A stretch of 64,000 bases of DNA from assembly GCF_900105025.1 (NCBI RefSeq), contig NZ_LT629759.1, forward strand, positions 1,612,001 through 1,676,000. The letters run 5' to 3'. The number at the start of each line of letters is the position of its first letter. Position 1 is the first letter of the stretch. Of the stretch, positions 45,477 through 54,425 are shown piece after piece. Source of the DNA: Parafannyhessea umbonata. GTDB lineage: Bacteria; Actinomycetota; Coriobacteriia; Coriobacteriales; Atopobiaceae. Below the pieces are notes generated by a model that did no database searches, was not told the DNA's origin, and worked only from the letters and a program-made list of their open reading frames with translations. Made by a program: the position numbers and the translations under genes.

Positions 45477-47534
45477 CTACTCGCGACGCCGGGCCTTCTC
45501 GCCTATGACGCCGCGCGCCATACCGTACGTGAGGAGGAAGTAGCCTCCGTACAGTACGAGCACGATGGCCATGGTGACGCCGAGGGGACGCAGGAAGTCG
45601 AGCACGCCCAGGCTCTTGATGACGCCTCCGAGGACGCCGAGCGCCACGTAGGAGTGCGCGAGCGCCACGACGAGCGGGAACAGGAAGTACGTGGCGATCT
45701 GCGCGAGGATGGCGTGGTTGACCATGCTGCGCTCGGCGCCGAGGTCGAAGAGCACCCGATAGCGGGGCGCGCTTTCCGCCACGTCGCTGAGCTGCTGGAT
45801 GGCGAGGATCGCCGCGCAGCTGACGAACAGGACGAAGCCGATGTAGAGCGCGAGGTAGCCGACGATCGCGGTGAGGCCGACGACCTCCTCCTTTGCCGTG
45901 GACTTGGACCCTGCCGCAAACAGCAGGCCCGGCTGGTGCGCCTTCACGACCTCCTTGTAGAGGCGGGCCTCCGCCCGGGAGCCTGCTGTCTTCACGTTGA
46001 GGAGGGAGGAGAGGGGCTCGAGCTGGGCGCGCTTGGACTCGAGCGCGGCATCCGGCACGACGATCGTGCCCACGCTGGTGTTGACGGAGTTCTGGTACTC
46101 CATCGTGGTGCTGCGTGCGCGCAGGCGCAGGGCGGTGCCGAGGAAGTCGAAGCTCCCGCGCTTGAGGGCGACGCGCTGCCAGAAGCCGACCATGTTGTTC
46201 ATGTCCGTGGTCACGAGGGCCTCGTTTGCCTTGAGGGTGGCCGGCTTGTCGCCGCGCAGGGCGAGGGTCGCGTTGTACTGCGAGAGCGAGACGACGTAGA
46301 TGGGGACCTTGTCCAGGCCGTTGGTGTACTTCGCGAAGCTGTCCGGAAGCTCGACCCCGGTGTCTCCGCGCAGCGTCTTGAGGTTCAGGCGCATGCTGGG
46401 GTCCTGGTAGAGGTCGATGCGGGCGGAGTCCGCGACGAGGGAGTCCCAGTCTGGGACGGAGGCCTTGAGGAGCGCCTCCTTCCCGCTGCCGCTGACGTCG
46501 TCGGCATCGGAAGCATGCGAGGTCTGGGCGGTGGAGTACATGGCGACGCTCACGTCGTAGTGGGTGATGGCGCTCACGCTCTGGTTGATGGAGCTGACGA
46601 TGGCAAAGCCACCGCACGTTGACGTTATGGCCAGAAACAGCGCGGCGCACACGATGGATATGGAGACCCAGGCGCTGTTGACGCGGCTGGAGAGCTGGCG
46701 GAGCGCAAACATGTTGAGGCCGCGCAGGTAGAAGCCACGGGCGGACTGGCCCAGGCGAAGCAGGAAGCCGGAGACGCTGAAGAACAGCAGGAACGTGCCC
46801 ACGCTGACGAGGGCGGTCGCGAGGTTGAAGCGCCAGTCGATCGCGTACATGCCGTTCACGCGCAGCTCGTGGTACGCGACGCCGATGAGCGCGAGCGAGA
46901 CGACGAACAGTGCGACGGAGAGCGGCAGGTTGCGGACGAGGCTCTTCTCGCCCTTGCGGTCCGCGTTCATGAGGTCGATGAGCCTGAAGCGCGAGACCTC
47001 GAACACGTTGAGGGCACCGACGACGAGGAAGATGATGGCGAAGCTCATGACGGTGTAGGCGCAGGCCTGTCCGCTGAACATGAGGCCGAAGCCCGTGACG
47101 TGGGTGTTGAACAGGCGCGCCGTGGCGTAGAGCAGCGCCTGCGACAGCAGGACGCCCACGGCGAGGCCGACGACGAGCGCACCCGCGCCGACGGCGAGCG
47201 ACTCCATGGCGACGATGCCCGAGACGTGGCGGCGGTCCATGCCGAGCGTGAGGTAGATGGCGAACTCGCGCTTGCGTCGGCGGATGAGGAAGCGGTTGCC
47301 GAACAGGACGAGAAACGCGAGGAGCACGGCCACGAAGATGGAGACACCCCTGATGATCGTCCCGAGCTCCTGCACGAGGGTGCGCATGTTGCCCGAAAGC
47401 CTGAGCACCGCGCTCTGTTGCGTGACGGAGTTGAACGCGTAGTACACGGCGACGCCGAGCACGAGCGTGAGGAAGTAGATGCCGAAGTCCCTAATGGAGC
47501 GACGGACGTTGCCGAGGGCGATCCTAGCGTACAT
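45477..47534 (-). CDS. Bce-type ABC transporter permease (antimicrobial-peptide detoxification)
   Basis: A 685-residue permease with about ten helices. Four lie in the first 180 residues, others near 200-320, and a roughly 220-residue extracellular domain (about 320-535) precedes the last three helices. This large loop before the eighth helix is the mark of BceB/FtsX-type permeases that remove bacitracin, lantibiotics and similar peptides from lipid II and that sense them for the partner kinase. The start is the ATG at 47534, with GGGGAGG upstream, overlapping the ATPase gene by 11 bases. A BceS/BceR-like pair lies 2 kb upstream on the same strand. The peptide is unknown. Confidence 0.88.
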   Translation of the reverse strand: MYARIALGNVRRSIRDFGIYFLTLVLGVAVYYAFNSVTQQSAVLRLSGNMRTLVQELGTIIRGVSIFVAVLLAFLVLFGNRFLIRRRKREFAIYLTLGMDRRHVSGIVAMESLAVGAGALVVGLAVGVLLSQALLYATARLFNTHVTGFGLMFSGQACAYTVMSFAIIFLVVGALNVFEVSRFRLIDLMNADRKGEKSLVRNLPLSVALFVVSLALIGVAYHELRVNGMYAIDWRFNLATALVSVGTFLLFFSVSGFLLRLGQSARGFYLRGLNMFALRQLSSRVNSAWVSISIVCAALFLAITSTCGGFAIVSSINQSVSAITHYDVSVAMYSTAQTSHASDADDVSGSGKEALLKASVPDWDSLVADSARIDLYQDPSMRLNLKTLRGDTGVELPDSFAKYTNGLDKVPIYVVSLSQYNATLALRGDKPATLKANEALVTTDMNNMVGFWQRVALKRGSFDFLGTALRLRARSTTMEYQNSVNTSVGTIVVPDAALESKRAQLEPLSSLLNVKTAGSRAEARLYKEVVKAHQPGLLFAAGSKSTAKEEVVGLTAIVGYLALYIGFVLFVSCAAILAIQQLSDVAESAPRYRVLFDLGAERSMVNHAILAQIATYFLFPLVVALAHSYVALGVLGGVIKSLGVLDFLRPLGVTMAIVLVLYGGYFLLTYGMARGVIGEKARRRE

Positions 47535-48303
47535 CTGCCGCCTCCCCACCCATGAAGCTCACGACGTCCATGATCTTCTGGAAGAACTGCTGGCGGGACT
47601 CGTCGCCACGCGAGAGCTCGTTGAAGATGCGGCCGTCCTTTATGAAGAGCACGCGGCTGGACCAGCTGGCGGCGTACGAGTCGTGCGTGACCATGAGGAT
47701 GGTGGCGCCCTGGCGGTTGAGGTCTGCGAGGCTACCGAGCAGGAGGCGCGAGTTCTTGGAGTCGAGCGCACCCGTGGGCTCGTCCGCGAGGACGATGGCC
47801 GGCCTGGTGACGATGGCGCGGGCGCAGGCGATGCGCTGGCGCTGGCCGCCGGACATCTGGTACGGGTACTTCTTAAGCACGTCCGCCACGTCGAGCATGG
47901 CGGCGACCTGCTCCACGCGGCCGGGAATCTCTTTGGGGCTCACGCGGTTGATCGTGAGCGCGAGGGCGATGTTCTCCTCGCCCGTGAGGGTGTCGAGCAG
48001 GTTGGAATCCTGGAACACGAAGCCGAGGCGCTCGCGGCGGAAGCGCGAGAGGTCCCTCTGCCTCATGCTTGTGACGTCACGGCCGTCGACCACGATCTGG
48101 CCGGCCGTGGGACGGTCGATGGTGGAGATGCAGTTGAGCAGGGTGGACTTGCCGGAGCCGGACGTGCCCATGATCGCGATGAACTCCCCCTTGCGCACGT
48201 CGAAGCTCACGCCGTCGAGCGCCTTGGTCATGGCGGTCCCCATGCCGCGGCCCTTCGAACCGTAGTACTTCTGCACGTTGTGTACCTGAAGGACGGTTTC
48301 CAT
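47524..48303 (-). CDS. Bce-type ABC transporter ATPase
   Basis: A 259-residue ABC ATPase of the MacB/BceA group. Walker A is GTSGSGKST, the Q-loop lies in LGFVFQDSNLL, the signature is MSGGQRQR, Walker B is IVLADEPTGALD and the switch His is in MVTHDSY. The length and motif details match BceA, LolD and similar subunits that work with FtsX-type permeases. AGGAGA precedes the ATG at 48303. It is co-translated with the permease gene. A 22-base palindrome at 48420-48441 lies 116 bases upstream, between this gene and the divergent MFS gene. Confidence 0.92.
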   Translation of the reverse strand: METVLQVHNVQKYYGSKGRGMGTAMTKALDGVSFDVRKGEFIAIMGTSGSGKSTLLNCISTIDRPTAGQIVVDGRDVTSMRQRDLSRFRRERLGFVFQDSNLLDTLTGEENIALALTINRVSPKEIPGRVEQVAAMLDVADVLKKYPYQMSGGQRQRIACARAIVTRPAIVLADEPTGALDSKNSRLLLGSLADLNRQGATILMVTHDSYAASWSSRVLFIKDGRIFNELSRGDESRQQFFQKIMDVVSFMGGEAADVR

Positions 48304-48419
48304 GTTCTTCTCCTCTTGCCGGACGCGCCGGCGTTGCGTCTTTGGGCATGACATGCCGTCGGTTTACATGCTCATGGTGCCACCGCGCGCATGGGGCAGC
48401 CATAGGCCTGGGTGACGGG

Positions 48420-48441
48420 AACCTTATGGTCTTGTAAGGTT
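48420..48441. promoter_or_regulatory. Palindrome AACCTTA-N8-TAAGGTT, putative operator
   Basis: Perfect seven-base arms with an 8-base spacer lie in the divergent gap between the Bce-type ATPase gene and the MFS gene. The arms resemble MerR-family operators (ACCTTx..xAAGGT), but a site for the adjacent BceR-like regulator is as likely. Confidence 0.5.
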
Positions 48442-48556
48442 GGGCAAGGCGAAGGCGCCCGCGCGCCTCGCACCAGACGCGCACGCCCCGGCCCGGGACC
48501 CGCCGACAACCCCGGGACCCACCAACAACACGAGAGACCCAAGAGAGGCTGACCCC

Positions 48557-49756
48557 ATGACCCATGCACTTATTGCCATCATCTACCTCGCGTTCGTGAG
48601 CCTTGGGCTCCCCGACGGCCTTCTGGGCGCCGCCTGGCCCGCCATGCACGCGGATCTGGGCGCCGCCGTGTCGCTCGCCGGCGCGATATCGGTCGTCATC
48701 TGCCTGGGGACCATCGTCTCGAGCCTCATGACCGACACGCTCGTGCGGCGCCTGGGAACGGGCAGGCTCACGGCCGCGTCCGTGGCCCTGACGGCCGTGG
48801 CGCTGTTTGGCTTCTCCACGTGCACGGCGCTGTGGCAGCTGGTGCTCTGGGCCATCCCGTACGGCCTGGGCGCGGGCGCCGTGGACGCAGCGCTGAACGC
48901 GTTTGTGGCGACGCACTACGCGGCGCGCCACATGAACTGGCTGCACTGCTGCTGGGGCATCGGCGCGGCCGCGGGACCCATGGTCATGTCCTGGCAGATG
49001 TCTGGCGCCGCCGGCTGGCCGGGAGGCTATCGCGTGGTGGGCGTGGTGCAGGTGGCGCTCGTGGCGGCGATCGCGCTGAGCCTGCCGCTGTGGCACGACC
49101 GCAAGGGCGGCGCGGGCGAGAGGGGCGGGGCGCACGGCGCCGGGCGCGCCACGGCGACGCGCAGGGAGCTGCTCTCGCGGCCCGGCGTGCCCCAGGCGAT
49201 GGCGGGCTTCCTGTGCTACTGCGCGCTCGAGTCCTCGTGCGGGCTCTGGGCCTCGACGTTCCTCGTGCTTGGGCATGGGGTCTCTGCTCAGACCGCCGCC
49301 CTTCTCGCCTCGCTCTTCTATGCGGGGATCACCGTGGGCAGGTTCCTCTCGGGCGTGCTCACCTTGAGGCTCGACGGCAGACAGCTGCTGAGGCTGGGCG
49401 AGGTCGTCATGGCGCTGGGAATCGTGACGATGCTCGTGGCGCCGGGGGTCGTGGCCCTGGGCGCGGGACTTGCGCTGCTGGGGCTTGGCTGCGCCCCGAT
49501 CTACCCGCAGATGATCCAGCTCACGCCCAAGCGCTTTGGGGCGGACGGCGCTCAGTCGCTCATGGGCATGCAGATGGCGTGCGCATACGTGGGATCGATG
49601 GCGTTTCCGCCGCTCATGGGTCTGGTGGTGGAGGGGGTGTCCCCGCTTCTGCTGCCGGTCGTCGCCGCGGTGCTGCTTGTGGTGATGACCTGCAGCCTCA
49701 CGGTGTGCGACCGCCGCGCTACCGGCCCGAGTCCGGAAACTCGATGCTCACGGTAG
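48557..49756 (+). CDS. Major facilitator superfamily transporter
   Basis: A 399-residue protein with about twelve hydrophobic helices in two halves, joined by a charged central loop near residues 180-215 (HDRKGGAGERGG). The first helix FVSLGLPDGLLGAAWP and LHCCWGIGAAAGP resemble the FucP/FHS branch of sugar and drug transporters. The substrate is not readable. The ATG at 48557 follows AGAGG. It lies on the opposite strand between the Bce-type transporter and its presumed two-component system, and its last 38 bases overlap the end of the kinase gene tail to tail. Confidence 0.88.
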   Translation: MTHALIAIIYLAFVSLGLPDGLLGAAWPAMHADLGAAVSLAGAISVVICLGTIVSSLMTDTLVRRLGTGRLTAASVALTAVALFGFSTCTALWQLVLWAIPYGLGAGAVDAALNAFVATHYAARHMNWLHCCWGIGAAAGPMVMSWQMSGAAGWPGGYRVVGVVQVALVAAIALSLPLWHDRKGGAGERGGAHGAGRATATRRELLSRPGVPQAMAGFLCYCALESSCGLWASTFLVLGHGVSAQTAALLASLFYAGITVGRFLSGVLTLRLDGRQLLRLGEVVMALGIVTMLVAPGVVALGAGLALLGLGCAPIYPQMIQLTPKRFGADGAQSLMGMQMACAYVGSMAFPPLMGLVVEGVSPLLLPVVAAVLLVVMTCSLTVCDRRATGPSPETRCSR

Positions 49757-50756
49757 TGCCGCGGCCAACCTGCGACGCAAGCGTCACGCGAAGCCCCATC
49801 TTCTCGCACAGGCTCCGCACCAGATAGAGACCGATGCCGGTCGACTTCGCAAAGCGACGGCCGTTCTGGCCGGTAAACCCCCTGTCAAACACGCGGTCCA
49901 CGTCCTCGGAGGGAATGCCGACCCCCTCGTCGGCGATGCTCAGCACCGTCACGCGCGCGTCTGCCTCGCTTTGGCGGCGCCTTGCCCCTATGCGAAGCCT
50001 CGCGGGCTCCAGCACGCCGTCGGGCCCCACCGGCTTGCGGTACTTTGCGGCGTTCACCAGCACCTGACCCAGCACAAACGTCAGCCACTTTGGGTCGCAG
50101 CGCACCTTAAAGTCAAGGTCTCCCAGCTCGGGGGCTATGCGAGCGTCAATCAGCGTCCGGGCGTTCGCCTTCAGGGCGCCGCGCACCAGCTCGTCCAGCG
50201 ACACGCTGCGGATGGCAAAGTCGCGGTCGACCGAGGTGCTCCGTGCATAATAGAGCGCCTGTTCTGCATAGCCCTCTATGCGCACCAGCTCGCGGTCCAT
50301 GGCGGCCGTCGCGGCGTCCGGATGGTTCTGGGCCACAAGGCGCGCCGCGGCGATGGGCGTCTTCACCTCGTGGATCCACGTCTCCACGTAGTCGCGGTAC
50401 TCGCGCTGCGCCAGGCGCTCCGCCTCCACCTCGTCCGTCATCGCCTTCGACTCGCGCGCGAGCGCGTCGTACATCAGCCGCCCCTCCAGGGTGGTCGGCC
50501 TTCCCACCAGCTCGCTCGCCAGGTACTTGCTGTCCAGCGCGTCCAGCGCCTCCCGCAACCGGCAGAAGAACTCGCGCCGCCGCAGCCAGTCAAGCAGCAG
50601 CCCCGCAAGCACGCACGCGCACACCACGCACGCCACCTCGACAAACACGCGCACGTCCACGCCGCGGGCGAGAAGCGCCAGCCCCGATAGCAGCACCCCC
50701 GCCACAAGCCCCACGACTATCGCGAGCCTGTCTACGAGATACGACCAGAAGCCCAT
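49719..50756 (-). CDS. BceS-like intramembrane-sensing histidine kinase
   Basis: A 345-residue kinase. Two membrane helices (about 10-32 and 36-58) with almost no extracellular loop are typical of BceS-type kinases, which rely on their transporter to detect peptides. The phospho-acceptor box reads YVETWIHEVKTPIAA, as in that family. The HATPase domain shows VLVNAAKYRKP (N box), IADEGVGIP (G1) and STGIGLYLVRSL (G2). It starts 52 bases after the response-regulator stop. Its 3' end overlaps the convergent MFS gene by 38 bases. Confidence 0.92.
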   Translation of the reverse strand: MGFWSYLVDRLAIVVGLVAGVLLSGLALLARGVDVRVFVEVACVVCACVLAGLLLDWLRRREFFCRLREALDALDSKYLASELVGRPTTLEGRLMYDALARESKAMTDEVEAERLAQREYRDYVETWIHEVKTPIAAARLVAQNHPDAATAAMDRELVRIEGYAEQALYYARSTSVDRDFAIRSVSLDELVRGALKANARTLIDARIAPELGDLDFKVRCDPKWLTFVLGQVLVNAAKYRKPVGPDGVLEPARLRIGARRRQSEADARVTVLSIADEGVGIPSEDVDRVFDRGFTGQNGRRFAKSTGIGLYLVRSLCEKMGLRVTLASQVGRGTTVSIEFPDSGR

Positions 50757-50808
50757 GTGCCGTCAGTCCTCCCCACCGCGGCGTCGCGTGACACCGCGCA
50801 CCCGCGCG

Positions 50809-51489
50809 CTACAAGACGAGGTAGCCCAGCCCGCGGCGTGTCTGCACAAAGTCGCGCGCCCCTATGGAGGCGAGCGTCTGGCGCAGGTGGCTCACGTTCA
50901 CGGTCAGCGTGTTGTCGTCCACGAACTCGTCCGTCTGCCACAGCTCCTCCTGGATGCGCTGGCGGCTCACCACCTTGCCGGCGTTGCGCATCAAGAGCGA
51001 GAGGATTCTGAGCTCGTTCTTCGTGAGCTCCACGGAGCGTCCGCCGTGCTCGGCCACGCAGCGGTCGCAGTCCAGGCGCACGCCGCCGCGCTCCAGCACG
51101 GCAGAGCGGCTGGCGCTCCCATATGCGCGCTCAAGCAGGCGCGCAATGCGCGCAAGCAGCACGGGGGCGTTGTACGGCTTCGCCACGAAGTCGTCGGCGC
51201 CAAAGCTCATGCTCAGAAGCTCGTCCATCTGCCCGTCCCGGCTCGTCACCACGATGATGGGCACGTCGGACTCGCGTCGCACCTCGCGGCACACGTACTG
51301 GCCGTCCACGCCCGGCAGGTTCAGGTCCAGAAGCACCAGGTCCGCCCCGGCGGCAAGCACCTGCCCCACCACGTCGTCGAACGCCTCGAGGGCGCACGGC
51401 TGGTATCCGTTGTTCCCCAGGAGCGCCACGAGCTCCTCCCTCAGCTTTGGGTCGTCCTCGACCACAAGCAGCCTGTCGTGCATCTGCAA
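50809..51489 (-). CDS. OmpR-family response regulator (BceR-like)
   Basis: A 226-residue regulator. The receiver domain has VVEDD at the N-terminus, the phospho-Asp in LVLLDLNLPG, Ser in VVTSRD and Lys in VAKPY. The C-terminal winged helix has ELTKNELRILSLLM and VNVSHLRQTL. It should activate the Bce-type transporter genes when the kinase reports peptide stress. The start is uncertain: a TTG at 51489 has GGAGG 10 bases upstream, while the ATG at 51483, two codons later, has a longer spacing of 16. Confidence 0.92.
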   Translation of the reverse strand: MQMHDRLLVVEDDPKLREELVALLGNNGYQPCALEAFDDVVGQVLAAGADLVLLDLNLPGVDGQYVCREVRRESDVPIIVVTSRDGQMDELLSMSFGADDFVAKPYNAPVLLARIARLLERAYGSASRSAVLERGGVRLDCDRCVAEHGGRSVELTKNELRILSLLMRNAGKVVSRQRIQEELWQTDEFVDDNTLTVNVSHLRQTLASIGARDFVQTRRGLGYLVL

Positions 51490-51592
51490 GACCGGAGCGC
51501 CTCCTCTAAAGCGTCGCCAACGGGTCGAATCAGTGTACCATCATGGGTTGTCGCTAACCTGCACACGGCAGAAGGACGGAAGGCGGGCGCTC

Positions 51593-52597
51593 TTGAAGAA
51601 CATACTTGTCATGGCCACGGGAGGCACCATCGCGTCGCTGCCCCACAAGGACGGCCTCGCGCCCGGCCTCACCGGCGAGGAGCTGGTGGAGCGCGTGCCT
51701 CTCATCGACAGCCTCTGCCACATCGACGTGGTGCAGCCCATGAACATCGACAGCACCAACATGCGCCCGCGCGACTGGATGCAGATCGCAGACGGCCTCG
51801 CCCGGCGCTACGACGACTACGACGGCTTCGTGGTGCTGCACGGAACGGACACCATGGCGTACACGGCGGCAGCGCTCAGCTACCTCTTGCAGGGCGGCTC
51901 CAAGCCCATCGTGCTCACGGGCTCGCAGCAGCCCATGGCCGCGCCGTTCACGGACGCGAAGCTCAACCTGTACCAGAGCCTGCTCGTGGCCACGGACGAC
52001 GCCGCGCGCGACGTGTGCGTCGTGTTCGGCGGCAAGGTCATCGCCGGCACGCGTGCCCACAAGCAGCGCACCATGAGCTACAACGCGTTCGTGAGCATGA
52101 ACTTCCCCACCCTGGCCTACGTCAGGGGCGACCGCGTGCTCTGGAGCGGCGGGCGCCCGCCAAGGGAGAAGGACCTCCCGTGGCGTCGCTTCCGCGCCAT
52201 GGACGACCGCGTCATCGTGCTGAGGCTGACCCCGGAGTTCAGGCCGCAGATCTTCTCGCTCCTGAAGGACGACTACGACGCCATCATCCTCGAGACGTTT
52301 GGCATCGGCGGCATCCCGGACTACGACGGCAACGCGTTCAGGCGCGCGATCTTCGACTGGGTGGACTCCGGCCGCACGCTCGTGCTGACGACGCAGGTGC
52401 CGGAGGAGGGGCTCGACCTGGGCGTGTACGAGGTCGGGCGCGCGTACTCCAACCACCCCGGAATCCTGAAGGGGGCGGACATGTCCACGGAGGCGCTCGT
52501 CGCGAAGACCATGTGGGCGCTGGGCCAGTCAAAGGACCCAAACCGCGTGCGCGAGCTGTTCCTGCGTCCCGTGAACCACGACCGCGCCGAGCCGTAG
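51593..52597 (+). CDS. ansA: L-asparaginase, type I
   Basis: A 334-residue cytoplasmic amidohydrolase that converts asparagine to aspartate and ammonia. The two threonine motifs are visible: MATGGTIAS near residue 8 and LHGTDTMAYTA near residue 83. SQQPM and the Lys of THKQ-like RAHKQRTM complete the site. There is no signal peptide, which indicates type I. The start is a TTG (LKNILVMATGG) at 51593 behind GGAAGG; I prefer it because the conserved strand begins right after it. It is divergent from the BceR-like gene. Confidence 0.9.
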   Translation: MKNILVMATGGTIASLPHKDGLAPGLTGEELVERVPLIDSLCHIDVVQPMNIDSTNMRPRDWMQIADGLARRYDDYDGFVVLHGTDTMAYTAAALSYLLQGGSKPIVLTGSQQPMAAPFTDAKLNLYQSLLVATDDAARDVCVVFGGKVIAGTRAHKQRTMSYNAFVSMNFPTLAYVRGDRVLWSGGRPPREKDLPWRRFRAMDDRVIVLRLTPEFRPQIFSLLKDDYDAIILETFGIGGIPDYDGNAFRRAIFDWVDSGRTLVLTTQVPEEGLDLGVYEVGRAYSNHPGILKGADMSTEALVAKTMWALGQSKDPNRVRELFLRPVNHDRAEP

Positions 52598-52712
52598 CGC
52601 CCACGCGCACCGCTGTCCGCGCATGGCGCCGTCTATATGCAGTTGGTGTCCCATGGCCAATCTTCCCGCCCACGCAGGGAACTTGTGCCATGATGATGAG
52701 TCATGCATAAGG

Positions 52713-52738
52713 AAATGAACACGGTTTGGTGTTCATTT
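52713..52738. promoter_or_regulatory. Palindrome AAATGAACAC-N6-GTGTTCATTT before the pyrophosphatase gene
   Basis: Perfect ten-base arms enclose a 6-base centre and end 6 bases before the TAAGGAG ribosome site. It could be an operator (TGAACA/TGTTCA half-sites occur for metal-sensing ArsR- and Fur-type repressors) or a 5'-UTR hairpin that affects translation. Confidence 0.6.
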
Positions 52739-52757
52739 GACGTTAAGGAGTCCAACA

Positions 52758-54425
52758 ATGCCCGAGGCCATCCGCAAGGTCAACGTCATCGGTCACCTGC
52801 ATCCCGACACAGACAGCATCTGCTCTGCCATCGCGTATGCGTACCTCAAGAACCAGATCAGCGACATCGAGTACGAGCCCCGCCGCGCCGGCGCCATCAA
52901 CCGCGAGACCGCGTTCGCGCTCAAGACCTTCGGCTTCGAGGAGCCCGAGCTCATCACGAGCGTCGCCCCGCAAATCAAGGACACCCAGATCTCCAAGCAG
53001 AGGAGCATCGAGGCGGACACCTCGCTCTTCTCGGCGTGGAACCTCATGCGCGACCTCAAGACCAGCACCCTGTGCATCACGGACGAGAAGAACGACCTCC
53101 TTGGCCTGATCGCGGTGAAGGACATCGCGAGCGCGAACATGGACATCTTCGACACCGCCATGCTCTCTACCGCGAAGACGCTCTTCTCCAACGTGCTCGA
53201 AACGCTGAAGGGCACCATGGTGCTTGGCGACCCCGCCGACCGCATCTGCCAGGGCAACATCCGCATCGGCACCACGCCCGAGATGATGGAGGGCAACATC
53301 GAGAAGGGCGACATCGTCCTGGTGACCAACCGCTACGAGACCCAGCGCTACGCGGTCGAGGCCGGCGCGAGCTGCCTGGTGGTCTGCAACGGCGCGTCCG
53401 TGTCCGACGTCGTCATCGAGGCCGCGAAGGCGAACGGCTGCACCGTGCTCACCACCCCGTACGACACGTACTCCGCCGCACGCCTCATCCCCATGGCGAC
53501 GCCCGTCTCCGCCGAGATGCTGCCCGAGGACAAGGTCCTGCGCTTCTCGGTCAACACGGCCGTGGACGACGCCCTGAAGGTCATGGCCAACTCGCAGCAC
53601 CGCTTCTTCCCCGTGATGGACGAGGACGGCCGCTACGTGGGCGTCGTGAGCTCGCCTAACATGATCAACGTGAACAAGAAGCACGTGATCCTCGTTGACC
53701 ACAACGAGCGCAGCCAGGCGGTGAGCGGCCTCGAGCGCGCCGAGATCATGGAGATCATCGACCACCACCGCATCGGCACGATCGAGACGAGCTCCCCCGC
53801 GTACTTCCGCAACGAGCCCGTGGGCTGCACCAACACCATCCTCTTCAGCATCTACCAGGAGAAGGGCGTCGAGATCCCCCAGAACATCGCGGGCCTTATG
53901 CTGTCCGCCATCCTGTCCGACACGCTGGCGTTCCGCTCCCCCACCTGCACCGACCGCGACAGGTACGCCGGCCGCGAGCTCGCGAAGATCGCGGGCGTGG
54001 ACATCGACGAGTACGCGGACGCCATGTTCGACGCCGGCGCGGACCTGACGGGCCGCACCGCCGAGGAGGTCTTCAACTCTGACTTCAAGGTCTTCTCGCG
54101 CGGGCACGCACGCTTTGGCGTTGGCCAGGGCAGCTTCATGACGGAGTCCAGCCGCAAGGCGGCCGAGGCTCTTGTGGGGCCGTACCTAAAGGAGGCCGCG
54201 GCGGCGAACGACATCCCAATGGTGTTCTACATGTTCACGGACGTGAAGTCCCAGACCACCGAGATGCTGTACTGGGGCGCGAACACCGACCAGATCGTGG
54301 CGCGCACGTTTGGCGTGACCCCGGTCGACGGCATCGCAACGCTGCCCGGCGTCGTCAGCCGCAAGAAGCAGGTCATCCCGCCCCTGATGACGACGCTCCA
54401 GGACATGGACGAGGAAGACGAGTAG
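52758..54425 (+). CDS. Family II Mn-dependent inorganic pyrophosphatase with CBS and DRTGG regulatory insert
   Basis: A 555-residue enzyme that hydrolyses pyrophosphate. The DHH core is split. N-terminal GHLHPDTDSICSAIAYAY carries the HxxxDxD metal ligands, and after a regulatory insert the core resumes with VDHNERSQ and IIDHHRIG. The C-terminal SRKKQVIPPL is the DHHA2 substrate-binding motif. The insert (about residues 70-300) contains two CBS motifs flanking a DRTGG-type domain, the arrangement of CBS-pyrophosphatases that are inhibited by AMP/ADP and activated by ATP or diadenosine polyphosphates. TAAGGAG precedes the ATG at 52758, and a perfect palindrome sits just upstream. A strong terminator follows. 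Confidence 0.94.
   Translation: MPEAIRKVNVIGHLHPDTDSICSAIAYAYLKNQISDIEYEPRRAGAINRETAFALKTFGFEEPELITSVAPQIKDTQISKQRSIEADTSLFSAWNLMRDLKTSTLCITDEKNDLLGLIAVKDIASANMDIFDTAMLSTAKTLFSNVLETLKGTMVLGDPADRICQGNIRIGTTPEMMEGNIEKGDIVLVTNRYETQRYAVEAGASCLVVCNGASVSDVVIEAAKANGCTVLTTPYDTYSAARLIPMATPVSAEMLPEDKVLRFSVNTAVDDALKVMANSQHRFFPVMDEDGRYVGVVSSPNMINVNKKHVILVDHNERSQAVSGLERAEIMEIIDHHRIGTIETSSPAYFRNEPVGCTNTILFSIYQEKGVEIPQNIAGLMLSAILSDTLAFRSPTCTDRDRYAGRELAKIAGVDIDEYADAMFDAGADLTGRTAEEVFNSDFKVFSRGHARFGVGQGSFMTESSRKAAEALVGPYLKEAAAANDIPMVFYMFTDVKSQTTEMLYWGANTDQIVARTFGVTPVDGIATLPGVVSRKKQVIPPLMTTLQDMDEEDE

Follow-up and report, generated by a model that had tools for sequence, protein, structure and literature searches.

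The question raised by this locus in Parafannyhessea umbonata is what role an inverted repeat could have directly before the ribosome site of a pyrophosphatase gene. The window, that is, the whole stretch of 64,000 nucleotides that was analyzed, contains the inverted repeat AAATGAACAC-GGTTTG-GTGTTCATTT at positions 52713-52738 of the forward strand, with perfect 10-bp arms (left, AAATGAACAC, 52713-52722; right, GTGTTCATTT, 52729-52738) and a 6-nt centre (GGTTTG, 52723-52728). The repeat ends 6 nt before the Shine-Dalgarno sequence AAGGAG (52745-52750, forward strand), which lies 7 nt 5' of the ATG at 52758 and is invariant in a three-sequence alignment. The arms of ten bases around 6 bases, and their position before the ribosome site, are exactly as the initial annotation gave them. 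Its description of a perfect 26-base palindrome is accurate for the arms but not for the 26 bases as a whole, since the centre is not self-complementary and relatives keep a 9 bp-N8-9 bp form.

Genomic context and chance expectation

The gene downstream of the repeat (52758-54425, forward strand) encodes a manganese-dependent inorganic pyrophosphatase of family II with 555 aa (NCBIfam NF011443; Pfam DHH, DHHA2, CBS, and DRTGG). Its upstream neighbour on the same strand is a type I asparaginase gene (51593-52597; TIGR00519 from residue 17 of the translation begun at 51545, 51593 being the start of the family match and not an assigned start codon), the end of which lies 160 nt before the pyrophosphatase gene. 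The two genes adjoin in P. umbonata 105184, MAG COR2, and P. umbonata KHGC19, but not in genome G026. Beside the asparaginase gene, window positions 45477-51489 hold an ABC permease and ATPase, an MFS transporter, a sensor kinase, and a response regulator (named by eye). Comparison of 11 window genes with the COR2 contig, which includes about 14 kb upstream of the asparaginase gene and ends 1.8 kb past the pyrophosphatase gene, revealed that these transporter and two-component genes, adjacent in 105184 too, are missing from that contig. Among open-access papers, judged by titles and passages, none was found on transcriptional control of a CBS pyrophosphatase, and a query with the arm letters, judged by titles alone, yielded nothing on a bacterial operator. 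Passages of one review describe little as known for bacterial pyrophosphatases and cite RegA for a membrane one (PMC11210485).

The arms had been called well beyond chance, which is too strong a judgement for the window by itself, whereas a repeat of this type is unusual for the 160-nt intergenic region. Repeats with perfect arms 10 bp or longer and loops of 3-8 occurred at a mean of 1.13 per 64 kb in 30 dinucleotide shuffles of the window, while the intergenic region contained such a repeat in 20 of 20,000 shuffles. Seven such repeats were listed in the window, two of them nested, leaving six that are distinct; the one before the pyrophosphatase gene is alone in being A+T-rich, the other five being G+C-rich. 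By itself the repeat is unremarkable at the scale of the 64-kb window, and it is convincing because it is conserved in the genus.

Conservation within the genus

The genus sample comprised three genomes, namely the window genome (G000), P. umbonata 105184 (G001), and MAG COR2 (G002), the first two of which are very close. P. umbonata 105184 (Atopobiaceae, Coriobacteriia) is the nearest named relative, with a pyrophosphatase 98% identical to that of the window. All three genomes carry the repeat at -45 or -44 from the pyrophosphatase start codon, as AAATGAACACGGTTTGGTGTTCATTT in the window, AAATGAACACGGTTTGATGTTCATTT in 105184, and AAATGAGCAGCAATCCGTGCTCATTT in COR2, and share the form AAATGARCA-N8-TGYTCATTT, with the conserved cores of the left and right arms at 52713-52721 and 52730-52738, respectively. 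Since 105184 and the window are nearly alike here (18/18 in the arms, 58/60 over the 60 nt upstream), the sample amounts in effect to one informative comparison, that of the window with COR2. Between these two, 16 of 18 arm positions are identical and both differences pair together, a symmetrical A-T to G-C change that leaves eight of the nine base pairs unchanged. The surroundings have diverged, with identities of 4/18 in the 18 nt 5' of the arms, 2/8 in the loop, 11 of the 19 nt after the repeat (Shine-Dalgarno sequence included), and 31 of the 60 nt upstream. Arms left to drift in simulations, with a per-site difference of 30% or 40%, retained the full set of nine pairs in 0.0029 or 0.0003 of cases, respectively. 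The length of the repeat stays at 26 bp, although the alignment puts a single-base gap on either side of it in COR2.

Our preferred reading, to which we assign a probability of about 0.45, is that AAATGARCA-N8-TGYTCATTT is a dyad operator inside the transcribed leader, just downstream of the promoter. Several observed features argue for an operator: a sequence with A+T-rich half-sites, conserved in three genomes, in which the arm letters are kept beyond pairing alone and stand beside a diverged flank and loop; a total length that is fixed though gaps flank the repeat in COR2; and a place after a -10-like motif. We infer the remaining parts, from the transcription start to any signal: a dimeric DNA-binding protein would bind both half-sites and, once bound, would block promoter clearance or elongation by analogy with HrcA at CIRCE, resulting in repression. 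Against this stands the small sample of three genomes, two of which are very close to each other. The initial suggestion of a repressor site or a hairpin finds broad support in the symmetry and position in all three genus genomes and in one paired change, control of translation being a candidate role of such a hairpin. With three sequences and a single paired change, operator and hairpin cannot be told apart, and the two could coexist.

The 8-nt core between the conserved arms (52722-52729) is variable and possibly inverted in COR2. The window core, CGGTTTGG, is identical to that of COR2, GCAATCCG, at 2/8 positions in forward orientation and at 6/8 when the latter is reverse-complemented (CGGATTGC), a likeness equalled by 1.4% of shuffled cores in a post hoc comparison of 8 bases. 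The pattern would be accounted for by a small inversion through the hairpin; inversions of this kind have been described at hairpins in chloroplasts (PMC12928735). Template switching, in which hairpin-templated mutation keeps the symmetry of a repeat without regulatory role, would account for the inverted loop and could draw on the same chloroplast precedent. Nevertheless, we consider it improbable, as it leaves conserved arm letters beside diverged flanks unexplained, and the loop result is post hoc over few bases. Rather less credible still is a single-target element arisen in one genus that would act as both DNA operator and leader hairpin, with a core flipping orientation between species through the hairpin.

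Distribution beyond the genus and within genomes

Upstream regions of pyrophosphatase genes were collected from two sets (30 and 26, a total of 56), of which 49 were distinct over the last 150 nt. Even when as many as 4 mismatches were allowed, matches among these 49 were confined to the three from the genus. Absence before orthologues in close relatives had been proposed as grounds for refutation; the repeat proved present in 3/3 genus genomes and absent outside the genus, in the other 46 distinct upstream regions. P. umbonata KHGC19 (G028), which is classed in another genus and has a pyrophosphatase 80% identical to that of the window, is without the repeat. When at most 1 mismatch was allowed, a search of 140 family genomes located the pattern in three, at the pyrophosphatase gene only, and a search of 396 class genomes located it in six, including the three of the genus; the 3,026 bases of each of the other three class-level loci (L073-L075) contain nothing that matched a pyrophosphatase. 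Judged from sequence, the repeat is a real, conserved cis-element of a known kind, so far seen in one genus.

A genome scan for further copies and their target genes had also been proposed as a check, and no second good site was found in the window's own genome. At up to 3 mismatches, the 64-kb window contains no other match to the repeat, and the whole genome adds one weak locus when the 10-bp form is used and three with the 9-bp form, none of them a convincing second copy. This counts against an operator, as a regulator with a single target and without such a site at its own gene is unusual. Nor did the adjacent genes supply a candidate regulator: the neighboring two-component system was considered as a partner of the repeat and rejected, it and the transporter genes being absent from the COR2 contig. 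Metal or nucleotide sensing, a possibility raised at the outset, gained no support from these searches: the operator of such a regulon would be expected before several functionally related genes, the window's genome has a single good copy, and Rfam yielded no riboswitch.

A shorter core at up to 2 mismatches gave 18, 18, and 23 matches in the window genome, 105184, and COR2, compared with 12, 16, and 11 for a reversed control, an excess of about twofold in COR2. Twelve of the 56 matches besides the repeat itself were inspected; judged by third-position G+C, nine or ten of them fall in likely coding frames. With spacers of 3 to 30 allowed, the window genome yielded no extra match, 105184 one, and COR2 three (control, 0 each); among these four (L093-L096), L094 and L096 look coding, L095 probably is, and L093 is ambiguous.

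One weak match lies before an acetyltransferase-like gene in the window genome (L002) and in COR2 (L083), where it overlaps a -35-like TGTACA and by eye is only partly symmetrical in either; it was rejected as a further site. At these two loci, a stretch (L002 1536-1916, G000:C1 617594-617974, with the matching stretch of L083 in G002:C1) has no evident gene and lies some 300 nt before a GNAT acetyltransferase gene (Pfam PF13508). It can be aligned between the two species, with identities of 80% (275 columns) and 75% (72 columns), and shows by eye a hairpin resembling a terminator. A comparison with Rfam gave no family above threshold, and the stretch is possibly an undescribed structured RNA.

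A plasmid search for the pattern yielded no match. Eight matches were found in viral contigs, two inside open reading frames and four (L067, L068, L070, and L072) consisting of AAATGAGCA...TGCTCATTT repeats flanked by long T or A runs; the latter probably represent terminators of phages whose likeness to the pattern is fortuitous. Such terminator-like company is the point in favour of reading the repeat as a transcription terminator or attenuator, and its 9-N8-9 layout, which resembles the core sites of tyrosine recombinases, is that in favour of a recombination or attachment site. Both are very unlikely. A search for an intrinsic terminator (a G+C-rich stem with a T run) at 52500-52900 found none, the stem here ending in three T only, and the asparaginase and pyrophosphatase genes adjoin in the window, 105184, and COR2 with nothing large inserted between them.

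Promoter-like motif and leader structure

A putative extended -10 element, TGCCATGAT (motif TGNCANNAT), lies at 52686-52694 on the forward strand. Because this -10-like motif sits upstream of it, the repeat is probably transcribed, and the transcription start is probably near 52701, which would place the repeat at about +13 to +38. After removal of seven Gemmiger sequences from the 49 distinct upstream regions, TGNCANNAT was present between -98 and -43 in 17 of the remaining 42 (14/39 outside the genus) and absent from 25, compared with a mean of 0.47 and a maximum of 4 in 200 mononucleotide shuffles, a test that is post hoc because the motif was picked after viewing the sequences. The assigned start is misplaced by a few codons at some loci (e.g. 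L010, L011, L026, L027, and L030), shifting distances in both the motif and the leader-fold analyses. The form TGGCACAAT was seen in 11/42 upstream sequences (e.g. L008, L009, L014, L016, and L024), at 43-98 nt upstream of the start codon, and is perhaps an extended -10 promoter of pyrophosphatase genes. A generic promoter scan found no promoter before the pyrophosphatase gene. A candidate upstream open reading frame, starting at ATG 52703 or at ATG 52715 within the repeat, was rejected by eye as not conserved because its frame differs, being out of frame in the window and in frame in COR2.

The removed sequences (L052-L058) belong to Gemmiger, a genus of another phylum, and their genes encode pyrophosphatases 58-61% identical to that of the window. 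Such identity across different phyla suggests gene transfer. Some Gemmiger leaders have other hairpins (L053, z -3.07).

If transcribed, the repeat may instead act at the RNA level as a 5'-UTR hairpin that would begin some 12 nt from the 5' terminus of the transcript and stop short of the Shine-Dalgarno sequence; it would slow transcript decay or affect access to the ribosome site and need no dedicated regulator. We regard this as a serious contender, somewhat less probable than an operator. A stem is predicted in all three genus genomes (-11.3, -6.7, and -10.1 kcal/mol), the A-T to G-C change occurs on both sides in COR2 around a variable loop, and an RNA that acts in cis would naturally be present once. 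A study of Helicobacter pylori reports that disruption of the vacA 5'-UTR stem-loop lowered mRNA half-life (PMC4843948); the likeness is that of a short 5'-UTR stem-loop, and organism and gene differ. Against the hairpin, the predicted fold of the leader is barely better than those of shuffled sequences (z -0.30 over 111 nt; -2.04, -0.83, and -1.47 over 57 nt in the three genomes), and orthologue leaders are unstructured as a set, with a mean z of -0.11 over 49 sequences, the genus three included, and four below -1.5. The stem letters are also kept more than pairing needs, and no Rfam family was found, the two matches in Rfam 15 (14.7 and 14.2 bits) falling below the gathering cut-offs of 45 and 75.9. 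The main predicted stem stops before the Shine-Dalgarno sequence in 3/3 genomes, although weak further folds pair part of it, a further point against this reading. A hairpin over the Shine-Dalgarno sequence, TTTGACGTTAAGGAGTCAAA, was listed for strain 105184 only and was rejected.

Comparison with known systems and implications

Among known operators, the CIRCE element of HrcA has the letters TTAGCACTC-N9-GAGTGCTAA and is placed in the leader. KdgR-type operators (IclR family) resemble the repeat in their outer half-site letters, AAATGAA/TTCATTT, with shorter spacing and different inner bases. The half-site centres of the repeat are 17 bp apart, which is wider than for common dimers and is a point against the operator. 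Like CIRCE, described in passages of one paper as a 9-bp inverted repeat bound by HrcA (PMC7760821), the pyrophosphatase repeat has 9-bp arms, a similar spacer length, and an inverted repeat at the promoter region; unlike CIRCE, it has unrelated arm letters, N8 rather than N9, and one genomic site. No CIRCE-like site (TTAGCACTC/GAGTGCTAA) was found in the window's own genome at up to 2 mismatches.

The repeat is probably a small local control element of an ordinary kind, either a protein-binding site or an RNA hairpin. If it served as both operator and hairpin, it would add a layer of expression control, lacking in relatives, to a nucleotide-regulated pyrophosphatase. A conserved site in the leader would lead to its regulator by simple pull-down, and would suggest that control of pyrophosphatase in one genus of Actinomycetota extends to its expression.
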